A stretch of 64,000 bases of DNA. It comes from Natrinema sp. HArc-T2. GTDB lineage: Archaea > Halobacteriota > Halobacteria > Halobacteriales > Natrialbaceae. Position numbers and translations under genes: made by a program. The stretch spans positions 186,001 to 250,000 of the forward strand of contig NZ_JBGUAZ010000001.1 in NCBI RefSeq assembly GCF_041821085.1, in the 5' to 3' direction. The notes under the pieces were generated by a model. It did no database searches, was not told the DNA's origin, and saw only the letters and a program-made list of their open reading frames with translations. Shown in pieces: positions 35,695-62,465 of the stretch. Within the stretch, counting starts at the first letter, position 1. Each line of letters begins with the position of its first letter.

Positions 35695-36277
35695 TAGCCG
35701 CTCACCTCCAGCTGCGTCGCCGGCGACCATGCCGCGCCGGCTGCGCGGTGTGCAGCGGCGCAATCGACGGTTGTGACGGACGTATCGAGTCGGTTCGAGA
35801 TCGCTGCCGTGAATGCAGTCCTGTTCCGTGTCATTGGTATCGTCGAACCCGTCCGCTCGTTGCTGTCGGATCGGGCCTCACTTCGACCACGGACAACAGC
35901 GGCCATTACTATACCACGAATAAGACGGTACGACGAACGCGACGTGAGCTATCGACTGTGTAAGACGCGTTCGTTTTCACACCCGCAGTGTCACGGGTCG
36001 TTCGCTCCCCGCTACACCAGCATAGAGTGGTCGCGTGAACACATCGGGACCGTCCGAGCGAGCGGGCTGATCCGGTGAAACGCTATACTGGCGTTCAACG
36101 ACGGAGTACACAACGCCCGATAGACGCGTCGCTGATCGGTTTACGAAGAGAGTAAACGCTGTTTTGTCGCTGAAAGTCGAAACGCAATCGGCGAAACCGG
36201 TCGCCATCGTCGTCCAATGGCTCGGTGACACCGACCGCGTTCCGGGTGGTGCAATTTGATGTCGACGGAGCGGGTGC
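35695..36277. other. Non-coding interval of 583 bases
   Basis: It lies between glmS and a membrane-bound regulator gene, both read leftward. Overlapping Arg- and Ser-rich open frames look like antisense noise. The half nearest glmS should contain its promoter, and an AT-rich stretch near 35900-35940 is a candidate. No gene can be supported. Confidence 0.5.
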
Positions 36278-38729: not shown

Positions 38730-39803
38730 ATGCGCGTGATGATCACGATCCAGCATCCCGGACACGTCCACTTCTTCCGGCACCCGATCGCGGAACTGGA
38801 AGCGCGCGGGCACGAGGTCCACGTCTTCGCTCGCGAGAGCGACGTCGCCGTTCGGCTCCTCGAGGCGTACGATATCGATCACGAGGTGCTCGCCGGCGAG
38901 TCGGACTCGCTGGTCTCGCTGGCAGCCGTGCAGGCGACCTACGAACTGCGACTCCTCCGGCGGGCACGGCGGATCGAGCCGGACGTGATCACGGCGATCG
39001 GCGGCGTCGCCGCCGCCCACGTCGCGTCGGTGACGAGCGCGAAGAGCCTCGTCTTCTACGACACCGAACACGCGAGTCTCATCACGACGCTCAGCTATCC
39101 GTTCGCGGATACGATCGCCACGCCGGCGTGTTATCGAGACGAGATCGGGCCGAAACAGGTGACGTACCCGGGATATCACGAACTCGCCTATCTCCACCCG
39201 GATCGGTTCGAGCCCGACCCGACCGTCCTCGAGGAGGTCGGGCTGGACGCCGACGCGTCGTTCGCCGTCGTTCGGCTCAGCAGCTGGGACGCTTCCCACG
39301 ACGTCGGTCACGGCGGGTTCGACAATCCTCGAGCGGTCGTCGATCGACTCGAAGATGCGGGTCTGCAGGTCCTGCTGACGGCCGAAGGAGAGCCGCCAGC
39401 CGATCTCGCGTCGTACCAGTTCGAGACCTCGCCGGACCGGATGCACGATCTGCTCGCGTACGCCGACGTCGTCCTGAGCGAGGGAGCGACGACCGCGGCG
39501 GAAGCCGCCGTGCTCGGCACGCCGGTGGTCTATGTGAACCCGCTCTCACTGGGCTACACGACGGAACTCGAGGAGGAGTACGGCCTGCTGTTCGAGTACA
39601 CTGGCGACGAAAGACACACACGCGGGCTCGAGCAGGCCGTCTCGATCGTCGAGGAACCAGCCGAAACGTGGAAACGCCGTCGGGAGCGCCTGCTCGAGGA
39701 ACGGATCGACGTGACAGAGGTCGTCACCCGACAGATCGAAACGCTCGCGCAGGCGAGCACGGCGGATCGAACGACTCCTGCGGCGAACCCGGATCATCCA
39801 TGA
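38730..39803 (+). CDS. DUF354 protein (glycosyltransferase-B-like fold)
   Basis: The 357-residue soluble protein begins MRVMITIQHPGHVHFFRHPI, typical of DUF354, and the C-terminal half has LLTAEGEPPADL and YADVVLSEGATTAAEAAVLG followed by TPVVYVN, as in GT-B enzymes such as MurG and UDP-GlcNAc 2-epimerases. DUF354 proteins occur in archaeal and bacterial polysaccharide clusters with no firm activity. Its stop overlaps the next glycosyltransferase start by ATGA, so both are co-translated. Confidence 0.9.
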   Translation: MRVMITIQHPGHVHFFRHPIAELEARGHEVHVFARESDVAVRLLEAYDIDHEVLAGESDSLVSLAAVQATYELRLLRRARRIEPDVITAIGGVAAAHVASVTSAKSLVFYDTEHASLITTLSYPFADTIATPACYRDEIGPKQVTYPGYHELAYLHPDRFEPDPTVLEEVGLDADASFAVVRLSSWDASHDVGHGGFDNPRAVVDRLEDAGLQVLLTAEGEPPADLASYQFETSPDRMHDLLAYADVVLSEGATTAAEAAVLGTPVVYVNPLSLGYTTELEEEYGLLFEYTGDERHTRGLEQAVSIVEEPAETWKRRRERLLEERIDVTEVVTRQIETLAQASTADRTTPAANPDHP

Positions 39804-40762
39804 AGGTACTCCAACTGGTCACGTCGTCACGACCGTTTTTCGAACAGCAAGTCTCGGCCCTCGAGGACCGCGACGTCGACTGTACGGTCCTCGAGGTGCC
39901 CGGCGAACACAGCGGCGATTCGGGTCGGACGCCGACGGACTACGCGCGATACTACGCGAACGTGCTCTCTGCGGTCCGGTCGTCGTCGTACGATCTGATA
40001 CACGCGAACTACGGGCTCGTCGCTCCGTTCGCGCTCGCCCAGCCGACCCGCCCGGTGGTACTGACTCTGTGGGGGACGGACCTCATGAGCGACCGGACGT
40101 GGCTGCGATCGTGCAGTCGGTACGGTGCCCGCCGGGCGGACGCCGCGATCGTGCCGAGCCGGGTCATGTCACGCGACCTCGAGACCGACCACGAACTGAT
40201 TCCGTTCGGCGTCGACACCGACCTGTTTCAGCCGATGGCGCGGGCGGACGCGCGCGAGTACCTCGGCTGGGAAACCGAGCAGCCGATCGCGCTCTTCCCG
40301 TACGACCGGACCCGTTCGGTGAAGGACTATCCGCGGGCCCGCCGGCTCGTCGAGCGAGCCGAGGTCGACCTCGAACTGCGGACGGTCTCCGGCGTCGATC
40401 ACGACGAGATGCCTTACTACATGAATGCGAGCGACGTCCTCCTGGTCACCTCGAAGCGCGAGAGCGGCCCGATGGTCGTCAAAGAAGCCGCCGCATGCAA
40501 TCTGCCGATCGTCTCGACCGACGTCGGCTTCGTCCGCGAGACGATCCGCGGTCTGACGAACTGCACCGTCAGCGACAACGACGGGGCGCTCCTTGGCGGC
40601 CTCGAGCAAGCCGTCGAAGATGCCGGTCGATCCAACGGGCGCGAATCGATCGACGGGCTCTCCGTCGACTCGCTTGGAGAGCGCCTCCACGGACTGTATC
40701 GCCGAGTACTCGATCCGGACGCCAGGGCGAGCTATCCGACGGGGGTCAGTCATGAAGTATAG
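39800..40762 (+). CDS. Family 4 glycosyltransferase
   Basis: From ATG 39800 (MKVLQLVTSSRPFFEQQVSA) the product is 320 residues in a GT-B fold. The N-domain has YDLIHANYGLVAPFALAQPT and the C-domain has VTSKRESGPMVVKEAAACNL, followed by PIVSTDVGFV; the two glutamates (KRESG and KEAAA) are the GT4 nucleotide-sugar motif. It is shorter than many GT4 enzymes but has the full set of motifs. It overlaps both neighbours, by four bases with DUF354 and 11 bases with the large membrane protein. Confidence 0.92.
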   Translation: MKVLQLVTSSRPFFEQQVSALEDRDVDCTVLEVPGEHSGDSGRTPTDYARYYANVLSAVRSSSYDLIHANYGLVAPFALAQPTRPVVLTLWGTDLMSDRTWLRSCSRYGARRADAAIVPSRVMSRDLETDHELIPFGVDTDLFQPMARADAREYLGWETEQPIALFPYDRTRSVKDYPRARRLVERAEVDLELRTVSGVDHDEMPYYMNASDVLLVTSKRESGPMVVKEAAACNLPIVSTDVGFVRETIRGLTNCTVSDNDGALLGGLEQAVEDAGRSNGRESIDGLSVDSLGERLHGLYRRVLDPDARASYPTGVSHEV

Positions 40763-42725
40763 CTCACTGTCGGAGCTGCGGCCGCTGCGACTCGACACCG
40801 TCGCGGCGATCGGCGGGCTCGTGCTCGCGCTGGCCTTGTTCCCGCTGCGATTTCTCACATCACAGATCTACATCAATACCGTGCCGGTCATCCTCGGTAC
40901 CGCGTGCGTCCTGTATATCGTCTCCCTGTATCAGCAAGACGACGCGCGGGCAGTTCCGACGCTTCCCTCGTCGGTATCGATGGCGCTTCCGAGTATTGTC
41001 TTTGTCGGGCTGTCGGGTCTCGTGGTGTTGCCGGTCGTTCAGGGTGAACGAACGCTTTCCTTCTTCGGGCTGGCGAGTGTCGTCGGCACGCTCGTTATCG
41101 GCCAGATCGTCTTCGCGAGCGATCGCGACCTCCATCCCGGCCTGCTGTTGCTCCAGATCGTTTGCTTCGCGTTCGTCTTCCGATTCGCTGCGCTCTACAC
41201 GACGCCAGGCTACATCGGAATCGACATCTGGACCCACCGTGAACTCGTCGACGCAATTCTCACGGAGCAGTCGCTGAGCGCCATCTCCGATAACAAACAC
41301 TACGGATCGCCGTTCTACCACCTCCTGGTCGCCGCCTCGTCGTTGCTATACGACGTCCCGATCCGCGCCGCGTTGTACCTCTCCGTCGGCCTCGTGATGC
41401 CGCTGTCAGTCCTGCTCGTCTACGCGACGACGAACCTGCTCGTCACGACGCGGTGGGCAGTGCTGGCGACGGCGCTCTACGCGTTCGGCAACCACGTCGC
41501 GCGGTGGGGAATACACATCATCCCCACGAGCCTGGGGCTGGTCTTCTTTCTCGCGATGCTGTATGCGCTGATCCGCGTAATGCGGATCGAATACACGATC
41601 CGGGACTTCGCGCTGCTGCTCCTGTTGAGCGTCGCCGTCATCCTCACCCACCAGGTGTCGACGTTCATCATGCTCGTGTTGTTGCTCGCGGCGTTTCTCG
41701 CCCAGCTCGTGTTCGTGATCGGCCCGTTCGGACTCACGCGGCTCGACACGAGCGTTTTCCGGACGAAAAAGCCGGTCAACCTCGTCGGGCTCGTCGTCTT
41801 CAACCTCGGGCTGACGATCTTCGTCTGGTCGCTGACGCCGTATAATCAGGACTCGTTCCTGGGAACGGTCCTGAGCTACTTCGCGCAGACGCTCGAGGAC
41901 AGCGCCGGCTTCCTCAATACCGCAGGTGAGTCCGAGACGGCGCAAGCGGGGGCCGAAGCCGCGCCGACACTGATAGAACAGGTGGTTCCCTATGTGGACA
42001 ATCTCGGCTTCCTGCTGTTGCTCGGTGCCACGTTCGCCGGCTGTCTGTACGTCGTCCACCGGCGACGTGCCGAACAGTCGGTGTTCACGCTCCTGCTGGC
42101 GGCGGCGTTCATGCTGGTGTTTATTCTCGGGTTCCCGATGTTCGGCATTCGGACGTTCATTCCGACACGCTGGTTCGCGTTCCTCTATGCGCCGATGGCT
42201 ATCCTCGGTGCGATCGGGCTACGGACGCTCCGAGGGAGCCTGACGCCGTCGCTCGTCGTCGTCGTGTTACTGGTGGGTGTGCTCGTGTATCCGGGTTCGA
42301 TGGTCCTCGCCGCCGAGAGCAACGTCGAGAATCCGGTCTTTGACGACCAGCACGAGCGGCTCGCGTACAACGAGACGGAACTCGCTGCGGCCGAGTCGAT
42401 CGCCGAACTGACGGGGTCGCCCGACGGCGAAGAGATCCGTCCCGATCAACAACTCTACACTGATCACCCGTATCAGACGCTGTTCAGTCGGACCGGCGCG
42501 TATCCCTCGACGACGACTGCGACGGTGCCGGAAGGCGGCGTCGCGGACCACGACTACTCGGTCTATCGATCGGCCCAATCGACCGACGCGACGTACGTGA
42601 CGAACACGAACGGAACCGCGCGGATCGAAGACCTCTCTCCGACACAGCTCTGTCGCCCTGACCAGGCGACGGTCTACACGAACGGGGACGTGACGATGTG
42701 TACGCCATCACCGGCAAGTCGCTGA
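40752..42725 (+). CDS. Large polytopic membrane protein, probable GT-C-type glycosyltransferase
   Basis: The 657-residue protein has about 12-14 membrane helices and then an extracytoplasmic C-terminal part of about 130 residues. The first large loop has GYIGIDIWTHRELVDAIL and NKHYGSPFYHLLVAASSLLY, which resembles the acidic first loop of GT-C enzymes using dolichyl- or polyprenyl-phosphate sugars. No named family could be assigned with certainty. It might alternatively be a polymerase of the Wzy kind. It is co-translated with the GT4 and DUF354 genes. Confidence 0.78.
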   Translation: MKYSSLSELRPLRLDTVAAIGGLVLALALFPLRFLTSQIYINTVPVILGTACVLYIVSLYQQDDARAVPTLPSSVSMALPSIVFVGLSGLVVLPVVQGERTLSFFGLASVVGTLVIGQIVFASDRDLHPGLLLLQIVCFAFVFRFAALYTTPGYIGIDIWTHRELVDAILTEQSLSAISDNKHYGSPFYHLLVAASSLLYDVPIRAALYLSVGLVMPLSVLLVYATTNLLVTTRWAVLATALYAFGNHVARWGIHIIPTSLGLVFFLAMLYALIRVMRIEYTIRDFALLLLLSVAVILTHQVSTFIMLVLLLAAFLAQLVFVIGPFGLTRLDTSVFRTKKPVNLVGLVVFNLGLTIFVWSLTPYNQDSFLGTVLSYFAQTLEDSAGFLNTAGESETAQAGAEAAPTLIEQVVPYVDNLGFLLLLGATFAGCLYVVHRRRAEQSVFTLLLAAAFMLVFILGFPMFGIRTFIPTRWFAFLYAPMAILGAIGLRTLRGSLTPSLVVVVLLVGVLVYPGSMVLAAESNVENPVFDDQHERLAYNETELAAAESIAELTGSPDGEEIRPDQQLYTDHPYQTLFSRTGAYPSTTTATVPEGGVADHDYSVYRSAQSTDATYVTNTNGTARIEDLSPTQLCRPDQATVYTNGDVTMCTPSPASR

Positions 42726-43617: not shown

Positions 43618-44607
43618 CTATGCCACCCCGATCGGCAGCCGCGCGACGCGATAGGCGTTGTCGACCGTCGGCTCCGCCGGTGGGTCGCCGTCGTAGAGCA
43701 ACACCGTCAGCTGCAGGTCATCTCCCCGCATCGTTGGCGTGATCTCGAGGGACTGCCGCGTCGATTCGCCGTCGGCTACCGTCGCTGTCGTTCTGTCTAA
43801 CTCAGTCGATTCGTGAACGGTCACGTCGTCGCCCTCGTAACGTACGCGCTGGAGCAGGACGACGGTCGTATAGCGGTGCTCTTCGTGCTCCTGATTCGTA
43901 ATCGTCACCCCCAGTTCCCGGGACTCTCCTGCGGGATAGGTCGACTCGTACATCGTGTCGATGTCACCGGTGACGCTTTCTGTCTCGACTGACAGTTCCG
44001 TGAACCCATCGTGTTGGGGTGGGTTCGCCAGGGCGAATCCGCCGCTTGCCAGCAACAGGACCAGTCCACCCGCGATGGCGATGTTGTATGGCCGACAGTT
44101 GACTCGGTCGTACGGACTCAGTTGACTCCGAGTGAAAAACGGGGTGGTGGATGAGAGCGTCGGAACGAATCGTCGATCGGCCGGACAGCGGTAGCGTGAA
44201 CCGATTGCGAGAGATGCGAGGATAACGGTAAGCACTGCGAGTCCGAGAAGGACCGGTTCTAGCGTCACTCCCCCTGGGGTTACGGTCGCGAAAAGGGTGA
44301 TCGCGGGAACGAGCGCGACGCTAAAAACGACTGACAGGACAGCCCGTTCGATTGCCTCGAGTCCGCCACTGACCAGCAACGGATTGCCGAGTCCCGTTTT
44401 TTCGTCGTCGAACGACTGGTAGTCGTCGTTCGGCTTGTCCGGAAAGAGGGCCGAGACGAGCGCATACCCGGGAAGAAACAGAACGAGCGGGATCGTCAGC
44501 ACGATTCGTCCAATGCCGGTAATCCCGGAGACGATTCCGAACGTGAGAGCGCCAGTGACGGCGATACCGGCCGCCAGATCGAAAAACCACCAGTTAGTGT
44601 CGCTCAT
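43618..44607 (-). CDS. DUF1616 membrane protein
   Basis: The 329-residue protein has four membrane helices in the first 200 residues, with LVLFLPGYALVSALFPDK near residue 40 as the DUF1616 hallmark, and one more helix near 175-195. The C-terminal 130 residues (from FTELSVETESVTGDI) form an external beta-sandwich with a surface-protein look. DUF1616 proteins recur in archaeal polysaccharide and glycosylation clusters, but their job is unknown. It is in an operon with the YdjM-like gene. Confidence 0.88.
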   Translation of the reverse strand: MSDTNWWFFDLAAGIAVTGALTFGIVSGITGIGRIVLTIPLVLFLPGYALVSALFPDKPNDDYQSFDDEKTGLGNPLLVSGGLEAIERAVLSVVFSVALVPAITLFATVTPGGVTLEPVLLGLAVLTVILASLAIGSRYRCPADRRFVPTLSSTTPFFTRSQLSPYDRVNCRPYNIAIAGGLVLLLASGGFALANPPQHDGFTELSVETESVTGDIDTMYESTYPAGESRELGVTITNQEHEEHRYTTVVLLQRVRYEGDDVTVHESTELDRTTATVADGESTRQSLEITPTMRGDDLQLTVLLYDGDPPAEPTVDNAYRVARLPIGVA

Positions 44608-44997: not shown

Positions 44998-45609
44998 ATG
45001 AAAGCGGAATATATCAGCTCCAATGACACAGACGATCAGGGTGTGACTGACGACGGTCAGGATGCGGATGGTGCGGCTGATCGTCCCTCTGAGGAGCCTG
45101 CATTTTCGAAAGACGAAATCTTTCATCTCCTGCAAAACGAACGGCGTCGAATGGTCCTCCGGTATCTCCGGGGCACTGAAGATCCCGTACGCATGCGCGA
45201 CATCGCAGAGCAGGTCGCAGCGTGGGAACACGATACCACCGTCGAAGAGCTCACTTCGACACAGCGCCAGCGGGTCTACATCCCGCTGTATCAGTCGCAT
45301 CTCTCGAAGCTCGACGAGGCGGGTCTCATCGAGTATCAACAGAACCGCGGCATCGTCGAGCGAAAGCCCCTCGCTGACCAAGTCGACAAATACCTGCACC
45401 TCGACTCGACCGGCGACTCGACCGACGAACAGCGCGCTGAGAGCCCCGAGTGGGAAGATTACTACATCGGTGCAACGGTCTTCTCCTATGCGGTCCTCAT
45501 CGGCGCAGTGATGGAGCTGCCGGTCATCTCGTTCCTCTCTGGAATCGGCCTGAGCGCGCTCATCCTGTCGGTCTTTACGGTGCTCACGATCAGCCGACTC
45601 ATCAACTGA
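44998..45609 (+). CDS. Membrane-anchored winged-helix protein (DUF7344-like)
   Basis: The 203-residue protein has a winged helix in residues 38-110: DEIFHLLQNERRRMVLRYLR, DIAEQVAAWEHDTTVEELTS and QRVYIPLYQSHLSKLDEAGL, then IEYQQNRGIVERK. Two hydrophobic helices fill residues 155-200. The plan and sequence are very like the protein at 15150. It lies inside the glycan island and is convergent with the related but shorter protein at 45670. It probably regulates transcription from the membrane; targets are unknown. Confidence 0.85.
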   Translation: MKAEYISSNDTDDQGVTDDGQDADGAADRPSEEPAFSKDEIFHLLQNERRRMVLRYLRGTEDPVRMRDIAEQVAAWEHDTTVEELTSTQRQRVYIPLYQSHLSKLDEAGLIEYQQNRGIVERKPLADQVDKYLHLDSTGDSTDEQRAESPEWEDYYIGATVFSYAVLIGAVMELPVISFLSGIGLSALILSVFTVLTISRLIN

Positions 45610-45669
45610 CACGGTGAATGGCGGTCTCTCGACGAACAACGATACCGCAAGAGAGACACCGCGTTTCGG

Positions 45670-46155
45670 TTATGAAATCAAGACAGAAACCGAGATCAGC
45701 GCGATCACGACGCACAGCAATCCGAAAGAGAGCGCTACGAGTACGGACGGTGAAATCACCCGCTCCTCGTTCGCGCGACCCGTAGACCGCTCGATCAACC
45801 CCTGTGTCTCGTCGAACTCGATGGCGCCGGTCGCATCGAGTGCCGGCAGTCGCTCCTGATGGAGTCGCTCGTGGACGATTGCCCACGTTTCGATCGGCGG
45901 TCGGGCCGGTTCGATCAGTTCATCGGCGACCTCGTCAACGGTGACAGGTGTGTTCATTTCATCGAGAACGGACACGAGAGCAGTATCGGATTCCGGCACG
46001 AACTCCCTCGCTCGTGTTTCGTCCGCATTGCCCGTCGGAACATCGTTCTCTGGGGAATAGACCATCGTGAATCCGGAAGTCGTCCCCGAACCCCCCGAGC
46101 GTTCTTCGCCATCCCCCTCCGACGAAGAGCGCAACCAAGACGGCGTCAGACGCAT
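45670..46155 (-). CDS. Membrane-anchored helix-turn-helix-like protein related to DUF7344
   Basis: From ATG 46155 the product is 161 residues: a Gly/Ser/Glu-rich start, a reduced winged-helix part (LVSVLDEMNTPVTVDEVADE, then TWAIVHERLHQERLPALDAT and IEFDETQGLIERS), and one C-terminal membrane helix (VLVALSFGLLCVVIALISVS). Compared with the proteins at 15150 and 44998 it has one helix fewer. A TATA-like box places the transcript start on this ATG. A GTG at 46194 and an ATG at 46065 are alternative starts. Confidence 0.72.
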   Translation of the reverse strand: MRLTPSWLRSSSEGDGEERSGGSGTTSGFTMVYSPENDVPTGNADETRAREFVPESDTALVSVLDEMNTPVTVDEVADELIEPARPPIETWAIVHERLHQERLPALDATGAIEFDETQGLIERSTGRANEERVISPSVLVALSFGLLCVVIALISVSVLIS

Positions 46156-46177
46156 ATTCCACGCTAAAATACCTTGG

Positions 46178-46184
46178 TATATAA
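46178..46184 (-). promoter_or_regulatory. TATA-like box for the 45670-46155 gene
   Basis: On the minus strand TTATATA is followed by 22 bases and then the ATG at 46155, an ideal spacing for a leaderless transcript. This supports the chosen start over the GTG at 46194. Confidence 0.6.
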
Positions 46185-46306
46185 GGTTTCTCACGGTTTA
46201 ACGGTAATGAACTGCATAAATTGCAGCGAAAGTCGGTTTCACGGCTGATAACTGTCGTGGGTCGTCCTCAAGGAACCTGTAAGACCGTAGATGTAGGATG
46301 AGTCAG

Positions 46307-48010
46307 TTACGCGATCACAGGGTTCGACGGACGAAGCCAGTGACGCAGTTGATCCGGTAACGCTGACCAGCACCCGAGCCATCCGCGGAGGTCGGTGAGC
46401 CGGAGTTTGTGTCTGGCTGATAGGCTGTGGACGTGCTCGAGGTCGCCCAACAACCGTCGATCGAAGTCGTGTCGATCGAACAGCGTCTCCCGGTCCGGCC
46501 ACGGCGGTTCGAACGACGAGAGAAACGGTGTCTTTCGACGGACGAATCCTTCGACCTCGTTGAACAGCCGCGCATCGTGCGGTCGATCGGGTGGTCTGTG
46601 TCGCAGAATGTCGTTGTCGAGTTGTTCGCACGCGCGAAGGAACGTTTCCGTTGTTCGGTGTTCCGGTGGCGTCCGGAGATGCCAGTCGATCAGCTCGCGA
46701 TCCGTCGCCAGAAACGACGTGACGAAGTGATCGGAGAGGTGGTTGTGAAACGGTATCGACGGCTGGTTCGCGATGCCAGTGCAGGTGAGCGCGTTCTGGA
46801 CCGTATCTGTGCGGCGTCGTCGCGTCTCGAACTCGTCGGCGATTGCCTCCGTGACGAACGCTTCCGGATCGACGTCGAAGGACGTCCGCTCGGCGAGTTC
46901 GAGGCTCGCCTCGCGGTTGTAGCCGAACTTCTCGAGGAGCGACTCGACGGGGTCCGGATCGGACTCGAGTCGGCCGGTCGGCACTCGTTTCCCGAGCACG
47001 TCGACGGCCTCCGAGGCGGTAAAATGGCCCCGGAAGAACGTATCACAGAGGAGGCCGTGGAACATCGTATCGACATCGATCTCGTCCGTGTAGCCGGCGT
47101 GGTGGATGTGCAAGGACTCCTTGATCCCCTGTGAGTAACGGATCTTCGACTCGTCGGGCCGGAGGTACCGCTCGTCCGGCGGGAAGGCGGTGTGGCTCGC
47201 GCCGTACTGGGCGGCGAGCGCTCGCGCACCGCGAACCTCTTGGGCGTCCAGTGAGCCGACCGTGTAACTTCGGTCAATGTCCTCGACCTGTGAGAGGATG
47301 ATCCGCGAATCGTAGCCCGCCGAGAGGAGCACACCCGTTCGGCCGGGAAGCGACGACCGCCGCCGGAACGCCCGGCCAAGGCGGTCGGCGAGCTCGTCGA
47401 CGGGATCGAACGTCCGGGACGGCTGTGGATCGTAGACGAACCGGTCGAAGGAGTCGACCGATGCGGGCGTGAGACGGCTGTCCAGCGGGAGTCGAGAGAG
47501 TTCCGTAACGGCCGTCTTCTCGCCGAGTATCACACCCAGATGCAGGAACTCGAGGACGCCGTCACGGTCAAGCGTCGGCTCCGCGATCGTGCGACCGATC
47601 GCAGCGGCGTCCGTTCCGAAGACGCGAACCCCGTGATCGTCGGTATAGAAGCACTCCCGGGAGCGGACCGGGTCCGTGGCGACGAACGCGTCGCCACTCA
47701 CTTCAGCATCGATCACGACGAGATACGATCCGTTGAGTTCTCGCAGTGCTTCGATGCCGATCGTCTCGTAGCGTTTGAGAAGCCAACGCGCGGCGTTCGG
47801 GTCGTCATCGGGAACGTACGCCTCTCCCCAGACGAGACAGCACCCCTCGTCGCCGGTGTACGTGGCGCTCCAGCCGGGCGTTCTGAGATCTGCGTCTCGG
47901 ATACCGACTGTGATGGTCGATCCGGCGAGCACTTCGTCGAAGTCGTCGCTTGATCTGAACCGCTCGAACGTGTCAATACCACCGATTACACCGAAGAGTT
48001 CCCTGTTCAT
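46307..48010 (-). CDS. Asparagine-synthase-like protein lacking the glutaminase cysteine
   Basis: The 567-residue protein has an N-terminal domain with the fold signs of class II glutaminases (ELFGVIGGI, GEAYVPDDD, LRELNGSYLVVID) and a C-terminal synthetase domain with a pyrophosphate loop VLLSAGYDSRIILSQ at residues 227-241. The usual Met-Cys start is replaced by MNRELFG, with Phe at the cysteine position, so glutamine cannot be hydrolysed in the normal way. It may use free ammonia or another amine, or have lost amidation altogether. In this island an acceptor could be a uronic acid. Divergent from the NodB gene. Confidence 0.87.
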   Translation of the reverse strand: MNRELFGVIGGIDTFERFRSSDDFDEVLAGSTITVGIRDADLRTPGWSATYTGDEGCCLVWGEAYVPDDDPNAARWLLKRYETIGIEALRELNGSYLVVIDAEVSGDAFVATDPVRSRECFYTDDHGVRVFGTDAAAIGRTIAEPTLDRDGVLEFLHLGVILGEKTAVTELSRLPLDSRLTPASVDSFDRFVYDPQPSRTFDPVDELADRLGRAFRRRSSLPGRTGVLLSAGYDSRIILSQVEDIDRSYTVGSLDAQEVRGARALAAQYGASHTAFPPDERYLRPDESKIRYSQGIKESLHIHHAGYTDEIDVDTMFHGLLCDTFFRGHFTASEAVDVLGKRVPTGRLESDPDPVESLLEKFGYNREASLELAERTSFDVDPEAFVTEAIADEFETRRRRTDTVQNALTCTGIANQPSIPFHNHLSDHFVTSFLATDRELIDWHLRTPPEHRTTETFLRACEQLDNDILRHRPPDRPHDARLFNEVEGFVRRKTPFLSSFEPPWPDRETLFDRHDFDRRLLGDLEHVHSLSARHKLRLTDLRGWLGCWSALPDQLRHWLRPSNPVIA

Positions 48011-48233: not shown

Positions 48234-49562
48234 ATGTCACAGAAACGCACAACGCGACGTCGATTCCTCGCACTGTCCGGCGCCGCCGGAATTACAGGCC
48301 TAGCCGGCTGTGCAGAGCGAATCGAGTCTGCAACCGACCAGCTCCGCGAGAAGTCGGCAGCCGTGACACCCGACGGATCGGACAGCTCTACCCCGGGACT
48401 CACCGACGGCGTTCCGCCGCTCGAGACCGAATTCGACAGCCGAGAACGATATCGACAGCCGGGCGACTCGCTCGACGACTTCAGCGATCTTGACGCCTGG
48501 ACCATCGTTCAGGGATCGGGTGGGGCAGACGAGGATGTCGTGTTCGACGGCGATCAGAGCTTCAGACTCCGATCGAACGGCAGCGAGAGCGTCATCGCCG
48601 AACGGAGCCTCGAGGGCGAGGATCTGACGGAAACGGACCTGTCGTTCGCGGTGCGGACGACGACGCCCGACAGCATCACGGTCAACCTGCGGGTCGTCGA
48701 CCAGTTCGGGAGCGCGAAAGTATACTCACTGCGGCAGATCCGGTACCGTGCACCCGACGTCGGCTGGTTCCGAACGAGTCCCGGCGTCTTCCAGCAGAGC
48801 GAGTACGAACCCGCACTCGACCACCTCGACCGGCTCGAGATTCAGGTGCTTCACTCCATGCCGGAGGCGGAGGTCTGGATCGACGACCTGCGAACCCATC
48901 CGACGCCCGATCAGGGGTATGTCATGCTGAGCTGGGATGACGGGACGCTCGACTACTACGAGACGGCCGCGCCGCTCCACGATGAGTACGGGTTCCCGGC
49001 GGTTCAGGCGCCGATACCGCGGTGGGCCGAACAGGGACGAGACGGGATCATGTCGATTTCGGAACTCCAGGACCGACAGGAGGCTGGCGATCAGATCGTC
49101 GTCCACGGAACGCACGAACCGATTCACGAACTCGACGACGAAGCGACGATCAACGAACGGCTCAGGCGGGACAAGCAGTGGTTCATCGACAACGGGTTCG
49201 AAGGCGCGAACTACATTGTCCATCCACACAACAGCTTCGACAAGACGAGCCTCGAGCAGGCGACTGATTACCACTACTGTGGTGGCTTCAATCAGGCCGG
49301 CAACGTCAATACGACGAGCGTCTACGGCTTCGATCCGCTGGCGTTACCGCGGACGATCGGCCACGACCTCGAGATATCGAAACGGTGTGTCGACCTCGCC
49401 GCTCGGCACAACCAGTGTACGATTCTCAACTTCCACACGTTCGAGGCAACCAACACGATGCCGAAAGCCGACTACGAGGCGTTGCTCAAGCACATCGACG
49501 GCGCCGATGTCGAGGTCATCACCTTCGACGACCTCTGGAAGCTACGGACGAGCAACGACTGA
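48234..49562 (+). CDS. Exported polysaccharide deacetylase (NodB-type), Tat lipoprotein
   Basis: A Tat signal with lipobox is clear (TTRRRFLALSGAAGITGLAG then C26). Residues 80-220 form a beta-sandwich, probably carbohydrate-binding. The NodB domain follows, with the metal and catalytic aspartates D235 and D236 in MLSWDDGTLDYY, histidines H294 and H298 in VVHGTHEPIHEL, and FHTFEA near the end. It would remove N-acetyl groups from a surface glycan outside the cell. The same domain plan is found in the degenerate protein at 52171. It is followed by a convergent aspartoacylase-like gene. Confidence 0.9.
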   Translation: MSQKRTTRRRFLALSGAAGITGLAGCAERIESATDQLREKSAAVTPDGSDSSTPGLTDGVPPLETEFDSRERYRQPGDSLDDFSDLDAWTIVQGSGGADEDVVFDGDQSFRLRSNGSESVIAERSLEGEDLTETDLSFAVRTTTPDSITVNLRVVDQFGSAKVYSLRQIRYRAPDVGWFRTSPGVFQQSEYEPALDHLDRLEIQVLHSMPEAEVWIDDLRTHPTPDQGYVMLSWDDGTLDYYETAAPLHDEYGFPAVQAPIPRWAEQGRDGIMSISELQDRQEAGDQIVVHGTHEPIHELDDEATINERLRRDKQWFIDNGFEGANYIVHPHNSFDKTSLEQATDYHYCGGFNQAGNVNTTSVYGFDPLALPRTIGHDLEISKRCVDLAARHNQCTILNFHTFEATNTMPKADYEALLKHIDGADVEVITFDDLWKLRTSND

Positions 49563-49692: not shown

Positions 49693-50862
49693 TCAACAGC
49701 CCGCCGAGAGCGTGATCCGGTCAGTGTCGGTCGTACCATCGTCGTCGACGACGCGGAGTGTGACCGGATGGTCCCCGGGTGCGCTGATCGTCACCTCGAT
49801 CGTCTCGCCCGTCCGGTCGAACGCGCCGTTGGCACCGACGCGCCACTCGTAGCGGGCGAGATTACCGTCCGGATCGGACGATTGCGACGCATCGAGCGTC
49901 ACCGTCTGACCCGGCTCGAGCGTCGTGTCTGCCAGTCCTCGCGGTCGCGTCTCGATCCGTGCGACCGGTGGCTCGCGGTCCGACGGCTGAGTGTCGCCGT
50001 CAGCGGACGTGTCCGACTCGGATTCCGTCACCGGCTCGTCGGAGACGCTGCCAGTATCGGTCCCCTCGAGCAAGAGTTCGTCCTCGAAGAGCCGTTCGAC
50101 GATCGCCCGGTGCCACTGGACGCGGGTCTCGAGTTCGATATCAGTCGAGAGCGTCTCCGCGAGGAACGCGTCGGCATTCAGATCGCGAGCGGCCTTGTGG
50201 ACGAGCAGCCCGTTCGGCTCGGTATCGGGCGAGGAAAACGGCCCGGCCTGGAACGAGAGGTCGGGATCGTCCACGTAGTTTCTGGTGACGTACTCGGCAG
50301 TGTCAGCAGCGGTCGCTTCGTCGCCGTCCGAGTAGAATATCGCCTGGCCGACGCCATCCGTAGGATCGCCCGCGTAGATACCCCTCGACTCGTGGAGGTC
50401 GACGACCACGTCGGGATCGTATTCGCTGACGACGTCCCAGATCGCTCGTGCGAGTTCTGTCTGCGGCGTCTCTCCCTCGGGGAACTGTCGGTTGAGGTTG
50501 GTCCCCTCCTCGTCGTTTCTGGTTCCGCGCTCGATCGCGACGGTGTTGGCCTCTGGGATTACGACGAGCGTGCCGGCATCGATCGTCCAGTCGGCGATCT
50601 GACCTGCGGCTGTATAACCCGCGTCCTCATTTCCGTGTACTCCGCCGACGACGACCGCCGTCGGCCCCTCGGTGTCCGCGCTCGTCACGAAGACGGTCGT
50701 TTCCTCGTCCGTTCCCTCGCGAATGGGGAACGATGTTCGAGAGACCATCCCCTCGTCGGTGGCAGTCGTGTCGCCGACCACGCTGGCGACGCCAGCGCTC
50801 GTGAGTGTACATCCAGCTGCGAGAGTCAATACGCTCCGCCGTGAGAGTATATCGCGCCTCAT
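49693..50862 (-). CDS. Exported aspartoacylase/succinylglutamate desuccinylase-like protein with PKD domain
   Basis: The N-terminus MRRDILSRRSVLTLAAGCTL is a Tat-like signal. The zinc-hydrolase domain shows H76 and E79 in GGVHGNEDAG, N124-R125 in TNLNRQFPEG, and H157 in VDLHES, the ligand and substrate residues of the M14-related aspartoacylase family. A Ser/Thr/Asp-rich linker (residues 275-300) leads to a PKD-like domain (TVTLDASQSSDPDGNLARYE near residue 333). Cytoplasmic relatives deacylate amino acids; an exported version in a glycan island probably acts on a surface substrate. Length 389 residues. Confidence 0.88.
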   Translation of the reverse strand: MRRDILSRRSVLTLAAGCTLTSAGVASVVGDTTATDEGMVSRTSFPIREGTDEETTVFVTSADTEGPTAVVVGGVHGNEDAGYTAAGQIADWTIDAGTLVVIPEANTVAIERGTRNDEEGTNLNRQFPEGETPQTELARAIWDVVSEYDPDVVVDLHESRGIYAGDPTDGVGQAIFYSDGDEATAADTAEYVTRNYVDDPDLSFQAGPFSSPDTEPNGLLVHKAARDLNADAFLAETLSTDIELETRVQWHRAIVERLFEDELLLEGTDTGSVSDEPVTESESDTSADGDTQPSDREPPVARIETRPRGLADTTLEPGQTVTLDASQSSDPDGNLARYEWRVGANGAFDRTGETIEVTISAPGDHPVTLRVVDDDGTTDTDRITLSAGC

Positions 50863-51013: not shown

Positions 51014-51988
51014 TCACCGAGTGAGCGCGCGCCGGCCGAGCGTCGCGGTGACGAGCAAGAGAACGAGCACCACCACGATCGGAATCGGTCGCCGCCGGAC
51101 GCCGGTCCCGGCGACCCAGCAGACGCCGGGATACGTCCGCGCCGACACCGAAGCCGCACGGAGGTGCCACAGCCCTCGCAGGAACCGCCCCTCCGCGAAG
51201 TACTGCTTCGCGAGAACGAGTGCGTGGCTCGAGCGGATCTCGTAGCCCTGTTCCTCGAACCGTTCGACCTCGGACTCGTACGCCGAGAGATATCGCTCGC
51301 TGGCGGTCGCGACGACGTCCGCCGGCGGACTGCCGGTCTCCTCGCGGACGACGAGCTCCTCGTCGACGTAGGCGAGCTTTCCGTGCTCGAGGACGCGCAG
51401 GCAGAACTCGGGGTCCTGGAACCGGTCGAGGTCCTCGTCGAAACCGCCGGCCTCCCTGGCGACCGCGGTCCGGACGAGCAGCGTCGAGCCGGCACCCGGC
51501 TGAACGTTGTCCGCGAGGATCTCGCCGACCAGCTCGTCGTTTCCCTCCCGCGTCGGTTCGTCGTCCAGGCGTGCGAGCACGGACGCGGCGGTCGATCGGA
51601 GCCGTCCGTCCGCCCCAGACAGGTCGTAACCCGTGTCACAGTAGACGCCGACCCAGTCGCTCGAGCGCTCCTCGAGCGCCGCGAGCTGTCGCTCGAGTTT
51701 CTCGGGATGCCACTCGTCGTCCGAGTCGAGGAAGGCGACGTACTCCCCGCGTGCGTGCTCGAGCCCTGTGTTCCGGGCGACGTTCGCACCCTGGTTGGCT
51801 TCGTGGACGACCGGCCGAACCCGCTGGTCCTCGTAGGCGGCCAGCACCGACTCGGTGTCGTCGGTGGAGCCGTCGTCGACGACGACCACCTCGAGGTCGT
51901 CGATCGTCTGCGCGAGCGCGCTGTCGATCGCGTGCGGAAGCGTCGCCGCCCTGTTGTACGTCGGGATGATCACGCTGACGCGAGTCAT
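51014..51988 (-). CDS. Family 2 glycosyltransferase (AglG/AglI/AglE-like)
   Basis: The 324-residue protein starts MTRVSVIIPTYNRAATLPHA, has VVVVDDGSTDDT at residues 35-46 and the metal-binding D88-S-D90 in VAFLDSDDEWHPEK, then DRFQDPEFCLRVLEHG as the acceptor region. A basic segment and one C-terminal membrane helix (IPIVVVLVLLLVTATLG, 301-317) anchor it. It resembles haloarchaeal Agl transferases that add sugars to dolichyl phosphate. It is divergent from the degenerate NodB-type gene. Confidence 0.92.
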   Translation of the reverse strand: MTRVSVIIPTYNRAATLPHAIDSALAQTIDDLEVVVVDDGSTDDTESVLAAYEDQRVRPVVHEANQGANVARNTGLEHARGEYVAFLDSDDEWHPEKLERQLAALEERSSDWVGVYCDTGYDLSGADGRLRSTAASVLARLDDEPTREGNDELVGEILADNVQPGAGSTLLVRTAVAREAGGFDEDLDRFQDPEFCLRVLEHGKLAYVDEELVVREETGSPPADVVATASERYLSAYESEVERFEEQGYEIRSSHALVLAKQYFAEGRFLRGLWHLRAASVSARTYPGVCWVAGTGVRRRPIPIVVVLVLLLVTATLGRRALTR

Positions 51989-52170: not shown

Positions 52171-53436
52171 ATGACGAATCGAAACCGACGATCGTTCGTA
52201 ACCACGGTTGCAGCGGCCGGAACGCTCGGACTTGCCGGCTGCCTCTCGCAGGTACGCGAATTGCGTGGCGCGGACGGCAAGCCGACGTCGGCCCAGTCGG
52301 GCGGTGACACCCCCGATTCCGGAAGCAGAGACCGCCTGGATCTCCCGGGCGAACCGATCGATCGCTTCGAGGACCTCGGCGAGTGGTCGGCGATGATCGA
52401 CGCTGGCGACCTCGAGTCCGGGACGGACGATCCGTACGCCGGGTCGCAGTCGGCACACCTCACCGCGTCAGAGAACGCCGAGTACGCGGCCGTCTACAGG
52501 ACGGTTCCGGACGGTCTGGACCTGAGCAACAAGAACTTCTCGCTGGCTGTCAACTTCACCGGGCGCGACCAGCTGCACCTCACGCTCGAACTGTTCGCGC
52601 CGAACTCGCGCAACGTACACGCCATGCAACGCACGCTTACCGGACCGGTCGATCGGTGGGTACGTGTCGACTTCGGCACCGATCGGATCGAGACCCAACC
52701 CGAGCTCTCGGACGTGCGCGAGATTCGGCTGATCGCCCGCCGCCGCGGTGACACGACCGGCCCGATAGACTGTCAGGTCGACGACCTCCGGGCGGTCGAC
52801 CGGCCCGACACGGGCCGTGTCATGCTCCTGTTCGATGGGACACTCGAGAGCCACCACGCGTCCGCGTTCGACCACATGCAGGCGTACGACTTCGCAGGCG
52901 TCGAAGCGGTTATCCCCGAAGCCGTCGGCGAGGGTGGCCGGCTCACGCTTGACAAACTTACCGAACTGGACGACGCGGGCTGGGACCTCGCAGCCCGGCC
53001 GCGAACCGGCTCGAAGTTCCTCCACGAGTTCAGCCCCGAGCAGCAGGAAGGGATGATCCGGCGGACGAAAGCATATCTCGAGAATCGTGGCTTCGAAGAC
53101 GGCGCGAAGCACTTCGTCACGCCGCGGAACATCCTCGGCTCGACGGCGAACGACCTCGTCCGGGAGTATCACGAGCAGGCGTTCCGGTTCGGCGGCGGCC
53201 CGAATGGGCTTCCGCTGACGGACCCCCACAACGTCGGGTTCTTCGCCGGCGACGCCGGAAACGAGACGAAAACGTACGTCGATTATGCTGCCGAGTATGG
53301 GGAACTCGCAGTCCTGCACTTCGAATACATCGGCGAGGACGGCATGAGCGAGCAGGCCTTCGACGGCTTACTCGAGTATATCGACACGCAGAACGTCGAG
53401 GTCGTCACTGCCACCGACCTCCTGGGTGACCGGTGA
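52171..53436 (+). CDS. Exported NodB-type protein with degenerate active site, Tat lipoprotein
   Basis: The signal RRSFVTTVAAAGTLGLAGC has lipobox C24. Domain order matches the protein at 48234: a beta-sandwich (residues 60-210, ending QVDDLRAVDRPDTGRVMLL), then a NodB-like domain. The catalytic region differs: LLFDGTLESHH has one aspartate (D222) where the other has two, and the usual HxxxH site reads LAARPRTGSKFLHEF without the first histidine. It is therefore likely inactive as a deacetylase and may bind the glycan or assist its paralogue. It is co-translated with the next GT2 gene (TGATG). Confidence 0.85.
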   Translation: MTNRNRRSFVTTVAAAGTLGLAGCLSQVRELRGADGKPTSAQSGGDTPDSGSRDRLDLPGEPIDRFEDLGEWSAMIDAGDLESGTDDPYAGSQSAHLTASENAEYAAVYRTVPDGLDLSNKNFSLAVNFTGRDQLHLTLELFAPNSRNVHAMQRTLTGPVDRWVRVDFGTDRIETQPELSDVREIRLIARRRGDTTGPIDCQVDDLRAVDRPDTGRVMLLFDGTLESHHASAFDHMQAYDFAGVEAVIPEAVGEGGRLTLDKLTELDDAGWDLAARPRTGSKFLHEFSPEQQEGMIRRTKAYLENRGFEDGAKHFVTPRNILGSTANDLVREYHEQAFRFGGGPNGLPLTDPHNVGFFAGDAGNETKTYVDYAAEYGELAVLHFEYIGEDGMSEQAFDGLLEYIDTQNVEVVTATDLLGDR

Positions 53437-54494
53437 TGTACCGCGACTCGAGTGTCGGCGTCGTGATCCCCGCCTACAACGAGGAAGGGTTCGTCGGCGA
53501 TGTGATCCGCGAGATGCCTGCATACGTCGATCGGATCTACGTGATCGACGACCGGTCGACGGACGACACCTGGAGCGAAATCCTCGAGGCCGCGCGGGCG
53601 GACACAAGCAAGCATGGGAGCCACGATGGCACAACCGTCCAGCAACTCGTGGCCGACGGCGGTGCGACCGCGCTGGCGAATCGGGCGACGGTTCGCGACA
53701 CCATCGGTCGAGTCGTCCCGATCGAGCACCGGGAGAACCGCGGTGCCGGCGGCGCGATCAAGACCGGTTATCTCGCCGCACTCGCGGACGGCGTGGACGC
53801 GACGGTCACCGTCGACGCGGACGGGCAGATGGACCTCTCCCAGCTGCCGCGACTCCTCGATCCGCTCGTCGAGGGACGCGCCGACTACGCGAAGGGAAAC
53901 CGGCTCCTGTCGCGTGAGTACCGGGCTGCGATGCCGCGGTTTCGGTTCATCGGTAATGCGACCCTGACGTTTCTGACGAAGATCGCCTCGGGCTACTGGA
54001 AGACGATGGATCCCCAAAACGGGTACACGGCGATCTCTCACGACGCGCTCGCGGCGATCGACGTCGAAAACCTCTACGAGTACTATGGCTACTGCAACGA
54101 CCTGCTGGTGAAACTGAACGTCCACGGAATGCGCGTCGCCGACGTGGCAATGCCGGCCGTCTACGGCGACGAGGAGTCGAGCATCGCGTACGGGGAGTAC
54201 ATCCCGAAGGTTTCGCTCATGTTGCTTCGAGACTTCCTGTGGCGGCTGAAAACGAAGTATCTCGTCCTGGACTTCCACCCGCTCGCACTGTTTTACCTCG
54301 TCGGAGCGGCAACGGCTGCCATTGGCGTCGTCGGGACGGGTGTGGCGGTGTCTGCGGCGCTCTCGAACGTCGGCACACCTGCCATTCAGGGTGCGACGAG
54401 CCTGTTGTTGTTCGTTGCCGGCACCGCATTCCTCCTGCTGGCGATGGTGTTCGACATGGCCGAAAGCGAATCGCTCGAGCAGCAGGTGCGATAG
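53436..54494 (+). CDS. Family 2 glycosyltransferase (dolichyl-phosphate mannosyltransferase-like)
   Basis: The 352-residue protein has VGVVIPAYNEEGFVGDVIRE, a middle D-x-D in VTVDADGQMDLSQLPRLLDP, and GNRLLSREYR as in DPM1/AglJ/AglD-type enzymes that transfer a sugar to dolichyl phosphate. Two C-terminal membrane helices (LALFYLVGAATAAIGVVGTG, and one near 325-345) anchor it. An insertion of about 25 residues after the first strand (ADTSKHGSHDGTTVQ) is unusual. A GTG one codon upstream is an alternative start. The ATG overlaps the upstream stop. Confidence 0.92.
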   Translation: MYRDSSVGVVIPAYNEEGFVGDVIREMPAYVDRIYVIDDRSTDDTWSEILEAARADTSKHGSHDGTTVQQLVADGGATALANRATVRDTIGRVVPIEHRENRGAGGAIKTGYLAALADGVDATVTVDADGQMDLSQLPRLLDPLVEGRADYAKGNRLLSREYRAAMPRFRFIGNATLTFLTKIASGYWKTMDPQNGYTAISHDALAAIDVENLYEYYGYCNDLLVKLNVHGMRVADVAMPAVYGDEESSIAYGEYIPKVSLMLLRDFLWRLKTKYLVLDFHPLALFYLVGAATAAIGVVGTGVAVSAALSNVGTPAIQGATSLLLFVAGTAFLLLAMVFDMAESESLEQQVR

Positions 54495-54683: not shown

Positions 54684-56306
54684 CTATATCCCGGACCCCA
54701 GGATCCCCAGCGTGAGCCCCGAGACGAGCAGGGAGAGTCCGGCGACGAACAGCAAACTATGGAGCCAGTTCCGCTCCTCTCGCTTCGTCCCACTGGTCGC
54801 GAGCCAAGTCCCGATCGCGTCCGCCTTCGCGCCGAGCGGATCGGGGAACGTCGACAGCACCTCGAAGGGTTCGGCGGGGTCCAGCGCGCCGACGAGCAGC
54901 GCGAACGTGACGAAGATCACGAACCCGACGGGCGGGACGACTGCGAGTGCGAGCCACGGGTTCGTGATGGCCATCGAGAGGGCGACGATCGGCCCGGCTG
55001 CGAGGACGGTCGTCAGTATCGAACGCCCGAGTCGTGCATCCGAGAGGGGATCGAAGCCGACCAGCCGAGCGCTCCAGCAGTGGAAAACGAACATCGACCC
55101 ATATCCGATGCTGGTCGCGACGGCGGCACCGTGCATCCCAAAGCGGGGGATGAGAGCGACGTTAAGCACGACGTTGATCACGGCCGCAGCGCCGGTGGCT
55201 GCGACCGGATAGCGGAGCATGCCCTTCCCCTGTGAAATCGCCAGTACCGGGCGTGCGAGCGCGAAGCCGAGCGACCCGGGCAGTAACAGCAATAGTGGCG
55301 TGATCGCCGGCATAGCATCCTCACCGAAGTAGATCGGCACGGCGATGTCCGCCAACGCCGCGAGCCCGACCGCCATGACGGCCGTCAGCAGGAACGTGTA
55401 CCGCGTCGTCTTGGACGCGAGCTCCGAGATCTCTCGGAGCCGATTTTGTGACCACAGTTCCGACGTCGAGTGGACGAATACCGTCTGGAGGGCCATCGGG
55501 ATGAACCAGAGGAACTCGGCGAGCGTGAGCGCTGCCTTGTAATTACCGACTGTAGCGCTCTCACGGAAGCGCTGGAGCATCACGATGTCGATGTGATAGA
55601 GCGACATCAGCAGGAAGACCAGCGCGATGCTCATCGAGTTGAACGTGAGCATCTGTTTCCGGGGGAACCGCTTCGTTGGGCGGCTGAAGAGACACGACAG
55701 CGGCATGCGACGATGCACGAGGGTCAGCCCGATCACGGCGACGAGCGTACTCGCGACCAGATGCCCTGCAAGCGCGCCGATCACACCGGCACCGAGATAC
55801 ACCAGCGGCACTGCGACGACGACGAATCCAACCTTATCGAGGATCTTCAGCGGCTCCGAGTACCGCTCGAGGCCGAATCCCATGAGTGTCTTCCGCGCGT
55901 AATCGCGAAACTGCGCCGTCACGACGAGTGCGGCGAGGACGTAGAAGTAACTCGTCAGTTCGGACCCGAACGCACGACCGACGAGTCCGAACCGTGTCGC
56001 GAGCACCAGCAGGAGCGCCCCGAGGACGGAGAGCAAGATCGCCAGCCGAAAGTAAAAGCCGACGACGTGTTCGCTCCAGTTGGCCGCGGCCCGGTCCTCC
56101 GCGAGGAACTTGCGGACCCCGTCGGTAATCCCAGAACTGACGAAGATCATGTAGATCGCGAAGACGGACAACAGAAACGCGTATTCGCCGAACGCCGATG
56201 CGCCGAGAAACCGGTACAGAAGCGGCGTCGAGAGCGCAGTGACGACGAGCACGACGACTTTTGCACTGACGACCGAGAAGACGCCGCTCGCGATACTCCG
56301 ATTCAC
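54684..56306 (-). CDS. Oligosaccharide flippase (polysaccharide biosynthesis family, MATE-like fold)
   Basis: The 540-residue protein has about 14 membrane helices and starts MNRSIASGVFSVVSAKVVVL. Its motifs, such as LYRFLGASAFGEYAFLLSVF and FFVxT-like segments around VFVHSTSELWSQNRLREISE, match the Wzx/AglR-type flippases that move lipid-linked saccharides across the membrane. The right length and helix number suggest it is functional. It is convergent with the DPM1-like gene and reads leftward as a single gene. In Haloferax AglR is the related flippase. Confidence 0.92.
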   Translation of the reverse strand: MNRSIASGVFSVVSAKVVVLVVTALSTPLLYRFLGASAFGEYAFLLSVFAIYMIFVSSGITDGVRKFLAEDRAAANWSEHVVGFYFRLAILLSVLGALLLVLATRFGLVGRAFGSELTSYFYVLAALVVTAQFRDYARKTLMGFGLERYSEPLKILDKVGFVVVAVPLVYLGAGVIGALAGHLVASTLVAVIGLTLVHRRMPLSCLFSRPTKRFPRKQMLTFNSMSIALVFLLMSLYHIDIVMLQRFRESATVGNYKAALTLAEFLWFIPMALQTVFVHSTSELWSQNRLREISELASKTTRYTFLLTAVMAVGLAALADIAVPIYFGEDAMPAITPLLLLLPGSLGFALARPVLAISQGKGMLRYPVAATGAAAVINVVLNVALIPRFGMHGAAVATSIGYGSMFVFHCWSARLVGFDPLSDARLGRSILTTVLAAGPIVALSMAITNPWLALAVVPPVGFVIFVTFALLVGALDPAEPFEVLSTFPDPLGAKADAIGTWLATSGTKREERNWLHSLLFVAGLSLLVSGLTLGILGSGI

Positions 56307-60810: not shown

Positions 60811-60985
60811 CCTTTCAGTTGTCTCCGCAGTAGTTCCGTTCGACCGCAGCCGACAGCGCACGGCAGCGGTGTCGTTCGTTGCACCACGTCTCTACGCCAA
60901 CCGTAGGAGACGAGCTACTTGATTATCAGTTCGTTAAACCGCTACAGAGCCAGAATTCTGCCGCTCCGATGACGCTCGGCAGCGG

Positions 60986-62323: not shown

Positions 62324-62465
62324 AGGATGGGCACTCGAGGACGCAGGGATTACTATGGAGTTATTAGGGCGGGGTAGCGTGTGTTCAGAGGCCGCTTCTG
62401 CGTGAAGGGTTCGTTCTATTGGTGGTTGCCATAGCGGTAATTGACCTTTCTCATCGATATGAGAT

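Follow-up and report, generated by a model that had tools for sequence, protein, structure and literature searches.

A nucleophile-less AsnB-like protein family of haloarchaeal surface-glycan clusters: a possible uronate amide ligase

The AsnB-like gene, its neighbours and its start codon

The window, that is, the whole stretch of 64,000 nucleotides of Natrinema sp. HArc-T2 DNA that was analysed, contains an intact open reading frame for an AsnB-like protein, and the genes around it are listed in Table 1. The protein consists of a degenerate class-II glutaminase-like N-terminal domain and a PP-loop synthetase-like domain, and the nearest named matches found for it, from Natrinema hispanicum and Haloterrigena sp. 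H1, are 89-90% identical to it. As an earlier note on this DNA had stated, a sugar dehydrogenase is encoded in the same island; it is a nucleotide-sugar dehydrogenase, which scores 348 bits with the TviB model versus 177 bits with the AglM model. The membrane protein with the weak PMT_2 match is likely to be a glycan polymerase or transferase. Judged by its sequence, the AstE/AspA-family protein is probably an exported amidohydrolase, which perhaps acts on an amide-bearing surface glycan. Two divergent genes for DUF7344 winged-helix proteins (44998-46194) lie beside the AsnB-like gene, and both are present in most Natrialbaceae loci.

Table 1. Genes of the window considered in this work, in order of position. 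Fractions refer to the 40 Natrialbaceae loci described in the text.
Feature	Position	Strand	Remarks
GlmS-like glutamine-fructose-6-phosphate aminotransferase	33889..35730	-	SIS and GATase domains
UDP-HexNAc 6-dehydrogenase, TviB/WbpO/WbpA-like	37272..38672	+	Pfam UDPG_MGDP_dh; TIGR03026, 382 bits
DUF354-type glycosyltransferase-like protein	38730..39803	+	kept in 33/40 loci
GT4-type glycosyltransferase	39797..40762	+	
Membrane protein, weak PMT_2 match	40755..42725	+	E = 0.013 only; in 33/40 loci
DUF1616 membrane protein	43618..44607	-	in 35/40 loci
DUF7344 winged-helix regulator	44998..45609	+	
Second DUF7344-like regulator	45670..46194	-	below cut-off; directly downstream of the AsnB-like gene
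AsnB-like protein	46307..48010	-	567 aa; glutaminase-like and PP-loop synthetase-like domains
Polysaccharide deacetylase-like lipoprotein	48234..49562	+	twin-Arg and lipobox by eye; 34/40 loci
AstE/AspA-family amidohydrolase with PKD domain	49693..50862	-	twin-Arg-like N-terminus by eye
GT2 glycosyltransferase	51014..51988	-	
GT2 glycosyltransferase	53433..54494	+	
Wzx-type polysaccharide flippase	54684..56306	-	
Phosphoglucosamine/phosphomanno-mutase family	60986..62542	-	Pfam PGM_PMM I-IV; GlmM-like by context

The N-terminus of the protein, MN[R/K]ELFGVFG, is kept across haloarchaea. In an alignment of 86 non-identical rows, residues 4 to 8 are E in 84, L in 80, F in 86, G in 86 and V in 85 rows, respectively. 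Nearly all of 83 orthologue matches, a set that includes some repeats of one gene, have the ELFGVFG motif in the same register. In several orthologues a stop codon precedes the Met by only one to three codons, and the DNA upstream of the start shows no conservation among orthologues. Together, these features show that the Met start is sound.

The earlier note held that the Cys nucleophile of the glutaminase is replaced. A Met-Cys start elsewhere, which would have refuted this, was not seen among the orthologues, either in the 83 matches or in the 86-row alignment, so that the replacement of the Cys is borne out. The same note placed a Phe at the Cys position, which is wrong: in both the MAFFT and the profile alignments the Cys column of AsnB is occupied by Arg3, preceded by two residues, and it is Phe5 of E. 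coli AsnB (MCSIFGVF) that lines up with Phe6. The nucleophile is absent from all 86 rows, which have Arg (49), Lys (29), Thr (6), Gln (1) or Asn (1) in this column.

Relationship to asparagine synthetases and changes in the two halves

The similarity of the AsnB-like protein to asparagine synthetases is low but exceeds what chance would give. It just missed the cut-off of the Pfam Asn_synthase model (E = 0.00096; 19.3 bits versus a cut-off of 21), and the NCBIfam model TIGR01536 matched residues 77-275 with E = 3.1e-12 and a score of 46.3 bits, which does not reach the family cut-off of 267.1. Profile comparisons were made with 86 orthologue rows, 10 canonical AsnB rows and 16 rows of haloarchaeal AsnB-like proteins of another kind, named here MVGL-type. 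Using hhalign, the orthologue profile matched the ten canonical AsnBs with E = 3.6e-16 over 231 columns and the MVGL-type proteins with E = 4.3e-34 over 497 columns; the MVGL-type proteins in turn matched canonical AsnB with E = 1.4e-38 over 536 columns. On these matches to canonical AsnB and, better, to the MVGL-type proteins, the AsnB-like protein is a divergent member of the AsnB fold, by sequence a real but distant homologue whose nearest relatives themselves lack the nucleophile.

These nearest relatives by profile, the MVGL-type proteins, are unnamed and about 610-660 aa long. Like the AsnB-like family they lack the Cys, with Val at its position, and mostly lack the Glu at the Glu348 position. 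They differ from the family in that their glutaminase-like domain scores over the Pfam cut-off in all three proteins tested, and in that they do not have the E298/H301/H303 motif described below.

When solved structures were searched by sequence, the AsnB-like protein on its own gave no match, and the orthologue profile gave weak ones (best E = 0.017). Profile matches to 1jgt and 1q15 were weak as well; these two, a beta-lactam and a carbapenam synthetase, have an AsnB fold with an unused glutaminase. Among solved structures, the paralogue profile matched the hydroxyamidotransferase 7ylz best (E = 1.8e-28). An AlphaFold2 model of the AsnB-like protein built from 14 sequences had a mean pLDDT of 48 and a pTM of 0.28 and was too poor for use. 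No relatives were found in a scan of viral contigs, and a viral origin of the gene was rejected on this result.

A second AsnB-like protein without an N-terminal Cys, of 510 aa, was also noticed (L143:9182-10711; contig 3 of the genome of the window, near 15.6 kb). It scores 21.7 bits with Pfam Asn_synthase, and its gene sits in a second glycan locus beside flippase-like and sulfatase-like genes, as judged by a look at their N-termini.

In human ASNS, glutamine is bound by Arg48, Asn74, Gly75, Glu76 and Asp96 (PMC6748925). Most of this pocket is lost in the AsnB-like family: the Asn74 position is Trp61, and the stretch before Gly62-Glu63, which includes the Arg48 region, is shortened, while Gly62-Glu63 themselves are retained. 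With its nucleophile absent, the family does not have the class II glutaminase of the WbpS-type enzymes. The degenerate glutaminase-like domain contains two nearly invariant cysteines, C58 (85/86) and C120 (84/86), whose codons lie in 47651-47839.

The synthetase half presents a different picture. As the earlier note had recognised, the sequence LLSAGYDSR, residues 228-236, is a synthetase loop of the family pattern. The SGGxDS feature of the PP-loop is present, with G232, D234, S235 and R236 each found in 86/86 rows, S230 in 84/86 and position 231 being A in 77 rows and G in 7. The metal-site Asp, D323, is likewise found in all 86 rows. The counterpart of Glu348 of E. coli AsnB and Glu364 of human ASNS is Leu320 (Leu in 80 rows, Thr in 3, and Gly, Trp and Ala in one each), and that of human Glu368 is Thr324 in 84/86. 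Hence, of the acidic cluster Glu364/Asp367/Glu368, which corresponds to L320, D323 and T324, only one Asp is left. In human ASNS, the E364A, E364Q and D367A variants are reported to be inactive even with ammonia, and in a model the three acidic residues hold an aspartate-like inhibitor by its amino group (PMC6748925). The single remaining Asp is in keeping with an acceptor that lacks this group.

The family has also gained residues, namely E298 (86/86), H301 (85/86), H303 (86/86) and H318 (86/86); H301 aligns near Arg325 of AsnB in a region where the alignment is only moderately sure. No clear counterpart was seen in the family, in a weakly aligned region, of Lys449, the catalytic Lys of AsnB. 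The conserved PP-loop, D323 and the gained residues argue against simple decay, and we infer that the predicted site still binds ATP but that its acceptor and its catalytic groups have changed.

Distribution, gene context and coupling to the dehydrogenase

The AsnB-like family is haloarchaea-wide, widespread and conserved, and occurs in surface-glycan clusters. Within Natrialbaceae, the family to which the window belongs, matches were found in 92/125 genomes at E <= 1e-5, and in 84 of these 92 the match is strong and covers the full length (E <= 1e-100, counted by eye). In an order-wide sample of 392 genomes the gene was present in 145 at 1e-20 and in 127 at E <= 1e-100.

An orthologue of the UDP-HexNAc 6-dehydrogenase (E <= 1e-100) is present in 144/392 genomes of this sample. 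It was found in 126 of the 127 genomes with a full-length AsnB-like gene versus 18 of the 265 genomes without one (Fisher p about 1e-81, without correction for kinship). The lone genome having the AsnB-like gene without the dehydrogenase, G366, is 88% complete. Counted by eye in the genus of the window, both genes are present in 21/29 genomes and both are absent from 8. The two genes may also be unlinked: G385 has them at 1.94 Mb and 0.50 Mb, 1.4 Mb apart, and in G349 (C56, C6), G183 (C2, C3) and G377 they are on separate contigs. Linkage alone is therefore not the explanation of the coupling. As a control we used the AglM-type UDP-glucose dehydrogenase, present in 309/392 genomes; it was found in 105/127 genomes with the AsnB-like gene versus 204/265 without it (by eye), which is no coupling. 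Since the gene is coupled to the UDP-HexNAc 6-dehydrogenase and not to AglM, it follows the HexNAc-uronate pathway and not uronates in general. The coupling reflects a shared pathway and by itself does not show the substrate.

A canonical AsnB scoring over the family cut-off was found in 11 of 117 sampled haloarchaeal genomes, and none in the genome of the window. That the AsnB-like gene might serve the housekeeping supply of asparagine was also considered; this is unlikely because the gene travels with glycan genes.

Gene context was analysed in a chosen set of 81 loci, 40 from Natrialbaceae and 41 from outside (40 from the order search plus L021), in all of which the AsnB-like gene was found by tblastn. 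The recurring neighbours in the 40 Natrialbaceae loci are the DUF354-type transferase, the DUF1616 protein and the deacetylase (Table 1), together with a GT2 glycosyltransferase (35) and the flippase (26), counts that are not independent because synteny there is inherited. The dehydrogenase lies inside the 19-kb stretch in 22/40 of these loci. Twenty control stretches from the same genomes contained none of these neighbours except one dehydrogenase. Outside Natrialbaceae, glmS is located 5-161 bp from the AsnB-like gene on the same strand in 19/41 loci, and a gene for an MVGL-type protein adjoins it in 7/41 loci, as it also does in L053. These MVGL-type genes have the same orientation, as if paired (L053:6761-8683, L021:8061-9944, L124, L132, L133, L134, L208 and L219).

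By context, 46 of the 81 loci were labelled glycan, 21 glmS-adjacent, 8 AsnB-partner and 6 other. Contexts cluster on a tree of the 81 copies, requiring 9 changes versus 31.6 in shuffles, and the AsnB-partner copies branch early once four paralogues are included. The earlier note had reasoned that orthologues in unrelated contexts, able to rescue asparagine auxotrophy, would refute its proposal. Unrelated contexts are few, at 6/81 loci, and the other 75/81 are glycan, glmS-adjacent or AsnB-partner loci. A few loci, for example L125 and L076, are without evident glycan genes. Some copies (L125, L124), which are without an evident glycan cluster, lie beside genes for KaiC-like ATPases, recognised by an N-terminal look; a phosphodiesterase gene related to that at 59128-60861 of the window is also found there.

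Possible function and comparison with known systems

The AsnB homologue WbpS, whose proposed role is the amidation of UDP-HexNAc-uronates, is encoded together with the dehydrogenases WbpO or WbpA (PMC6025236, PMC7468200). Of the readings weighed here we consider it the most likely that the AsnB-like protein is a WbpS-like ligase that does not use glutamine and that amidates, with ammonia or an amine, a HexNAc-uronate of a haloarchaeal surface glycan, and we put the probability of this reading at slightly under one half (about 0.48). GlmS and the GlmM-like mutase would make UDP-HexNAc, which the UDP-HexNAc 6-dehydrogenase would oxidise to UDP-HexNAc-uronate. The AsnB-like protein would then activate the C6 carboxylate of the uronate in its PP-loop site as an acyl-adenylate, at the expense of ATP, and would amidate the activated uronate as WbpS does. 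The nitrogen would come from free ammonia, or another protein would supply ammonia or an amine; as the N-terminal Cys is absent, the nitrogen would not come from glutamine by the usual route. We thus infer that the protein is catalytic, that a uronate is its acceptor and that its nitrogen source is as proposed.

The dehydrogenase coupling, the glycan context, the retention of D234, S235, R236 and D323 and the wbpS precedent speak for this reading, as does the reduced acidic cluster. The Leu at the Glu364 position in 80/86 rows, the unclear counterpart of Lys449 and the 6/81 loci that lie elsewhere speak against it. The earlier note had already put forward that a uronate might be amidated with ammonia or an amine, and had pointed to WbpS as a proposed example of an AsnB homologue that amidates uronic acids. 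That proposal has gained strength, since the gene is coupled to the dehydrogenase (126/127 versus 18/265) and WbpS-type homologues have a dehydrogenase of this kind as their partner. It is only partly supported, because catalysis is only predicted and Glu364, which is essential in human ASNS, is a Leu here.

Other readings of the same data have to be weighed. An amino acid or some other amine might instead be coupled to the carboxylate of the HexNAc-uronate to give a secondary amide, as in the glutaminase-less beta-lactam and carbapenam synthetases, which we judge to be unlikely, if well worth bearing in mind. These synthetases show the same pattern of a lost glutaminase and a PP-loop that is kept, and in them an amine of the substrate takes the place of ammonia. 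The AsnB homologues FzmA and TsnB9 are reported to use hydrazine or hydroxylamine instead of ammonia (PMC6133997), and the wall polymer of Halococcus is described as containing glycine together with uronic acids (PMC4187196). The match of the paralogue profile to 7ylz and the AstE/AspA-family amidohydrolase encoded nearby are also in line with such a coupling. The amine donor or acceptor remains hypothetical, however, and the Glu348 position is Leu in the AsnB-like family (80/86), not the Tyr that beta-lactam synthetase has there.

The alterations in both halves of the protein, with the nucleophile gone, Asn74 changed to Trp61 and Glu348 to Leu320, would also be in keeping with a pseudoenzyme that regulates or assembles the pathway without catalysis, perhaps together with GlmS or an MVGL-type partner, whose genes adjoin the AsnB-like gene in 19/41 and 7/41 loci outside Natrialbaceae. 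We hold this to be improbable, as D234, S235, R236 and D323 are retained in 86/86 rows and E298, H301, H303 and H318 in 85-86/86, an unusual degree of conservation for a site that no longer has to catalyse a reaction. Enzymes of the PP-loop fold act on a wide range of acceptors, and the protein might adenylate or amidate another one in the same glycan, such as a carboxylate on another sugar or a pyruvyl group. The few family loci without evident glycan genes agree with this, but the gene follows the HexNAc-uronate dehydrogenase rather than AglM, which makes this reading quite improbable.

A broader version of the amide-ligase reading would be that the proteins form a haloarchaea-wide family of glutamine-independent PP-loop glycan amide ligases in which a conserved Glu-x2-His-x-His motif stands in for the catalytic Glu of AsnB, which produce HexNAc-uronamides or amino-acid amides of these uronates on the surface polymers of archaea, and which in some lineages are paired with a second nucleophile-less AsnB-like protein encoded next to them. 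We propose this tentatively and think it rather unlikely to hold in full.

If HexNAc-uronates are amidated as proposed, such amides are predicted in the coats of many haloarchaea, for which no report was found in literature searches; nor was a published description of this haloarchaeal AsnB-like family recognised in them. Archaeal polymers are reported to contain HexNAc-uronates (PMC3191746, PMC4187196). The genome paper of Natrialba magadii lists glycan genes, and the word 'asparagine' is absent from its text (PMC3403918); the paper on the Haloarcula hispanica exopolysaccharide does not mention asparagine synthase (PMC9943897). If the proposal holds, the AsnB superfamily would also gain a branch that naturally has no glutaminase and whose synthetase site is altered, which would test how much drift such a site tolerates before amide formation is lost. 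The tight coupling of gene and dehydrogenase provides a genome-based marker for the whole glycan pathway.

The AsnB-like family shares the two-domain architecture, the PP-loop and the metal Asp with AsnB and ASNS, but differs from them in that it lacks the Cys nucleophile and has lost the glutamine pocket and most of the acidic cluster. With the beta-lactam and carbapenam synthetases, whose glutaminase is unused, the family has the AsnB fold in common; it lacks the glutaminase Cys, and its synthetase site is putatively active. These synthetases perform small-molecule beta-lactam chemistry, unlike the AsnB-like family with its glycan setting.

The closest parallel to the proposed role is WbpS of Pseudomonas aeruginosa O6, Helicobacter pullorum and Porphyromonas gingivalis, which has a surface-glycan setting and the same kind of dehydrogenase. 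In H. pullorum, wbpO and wbpS contribute to a single glycan, and the N-glycan of a wbpS knock-out is reported to be cut short at the uronate (PMC6025236); in P. gingivalis, glucuronamide is reported to be lost upon deletion of wbpS (PGN_1234) (PMC7468200). WbpS has been described as a glutamine amidotransferase (PMC3684757), whereas glutamine-dependent chemistry is not expected of the AsnB-like family, which is without the N-terminal Cys. Lacking a glutaminase, the family is not WbpS by definition, yet it may work like WbpS, and would then represent a novel form of an already described type of sugar-modifying enzyme.
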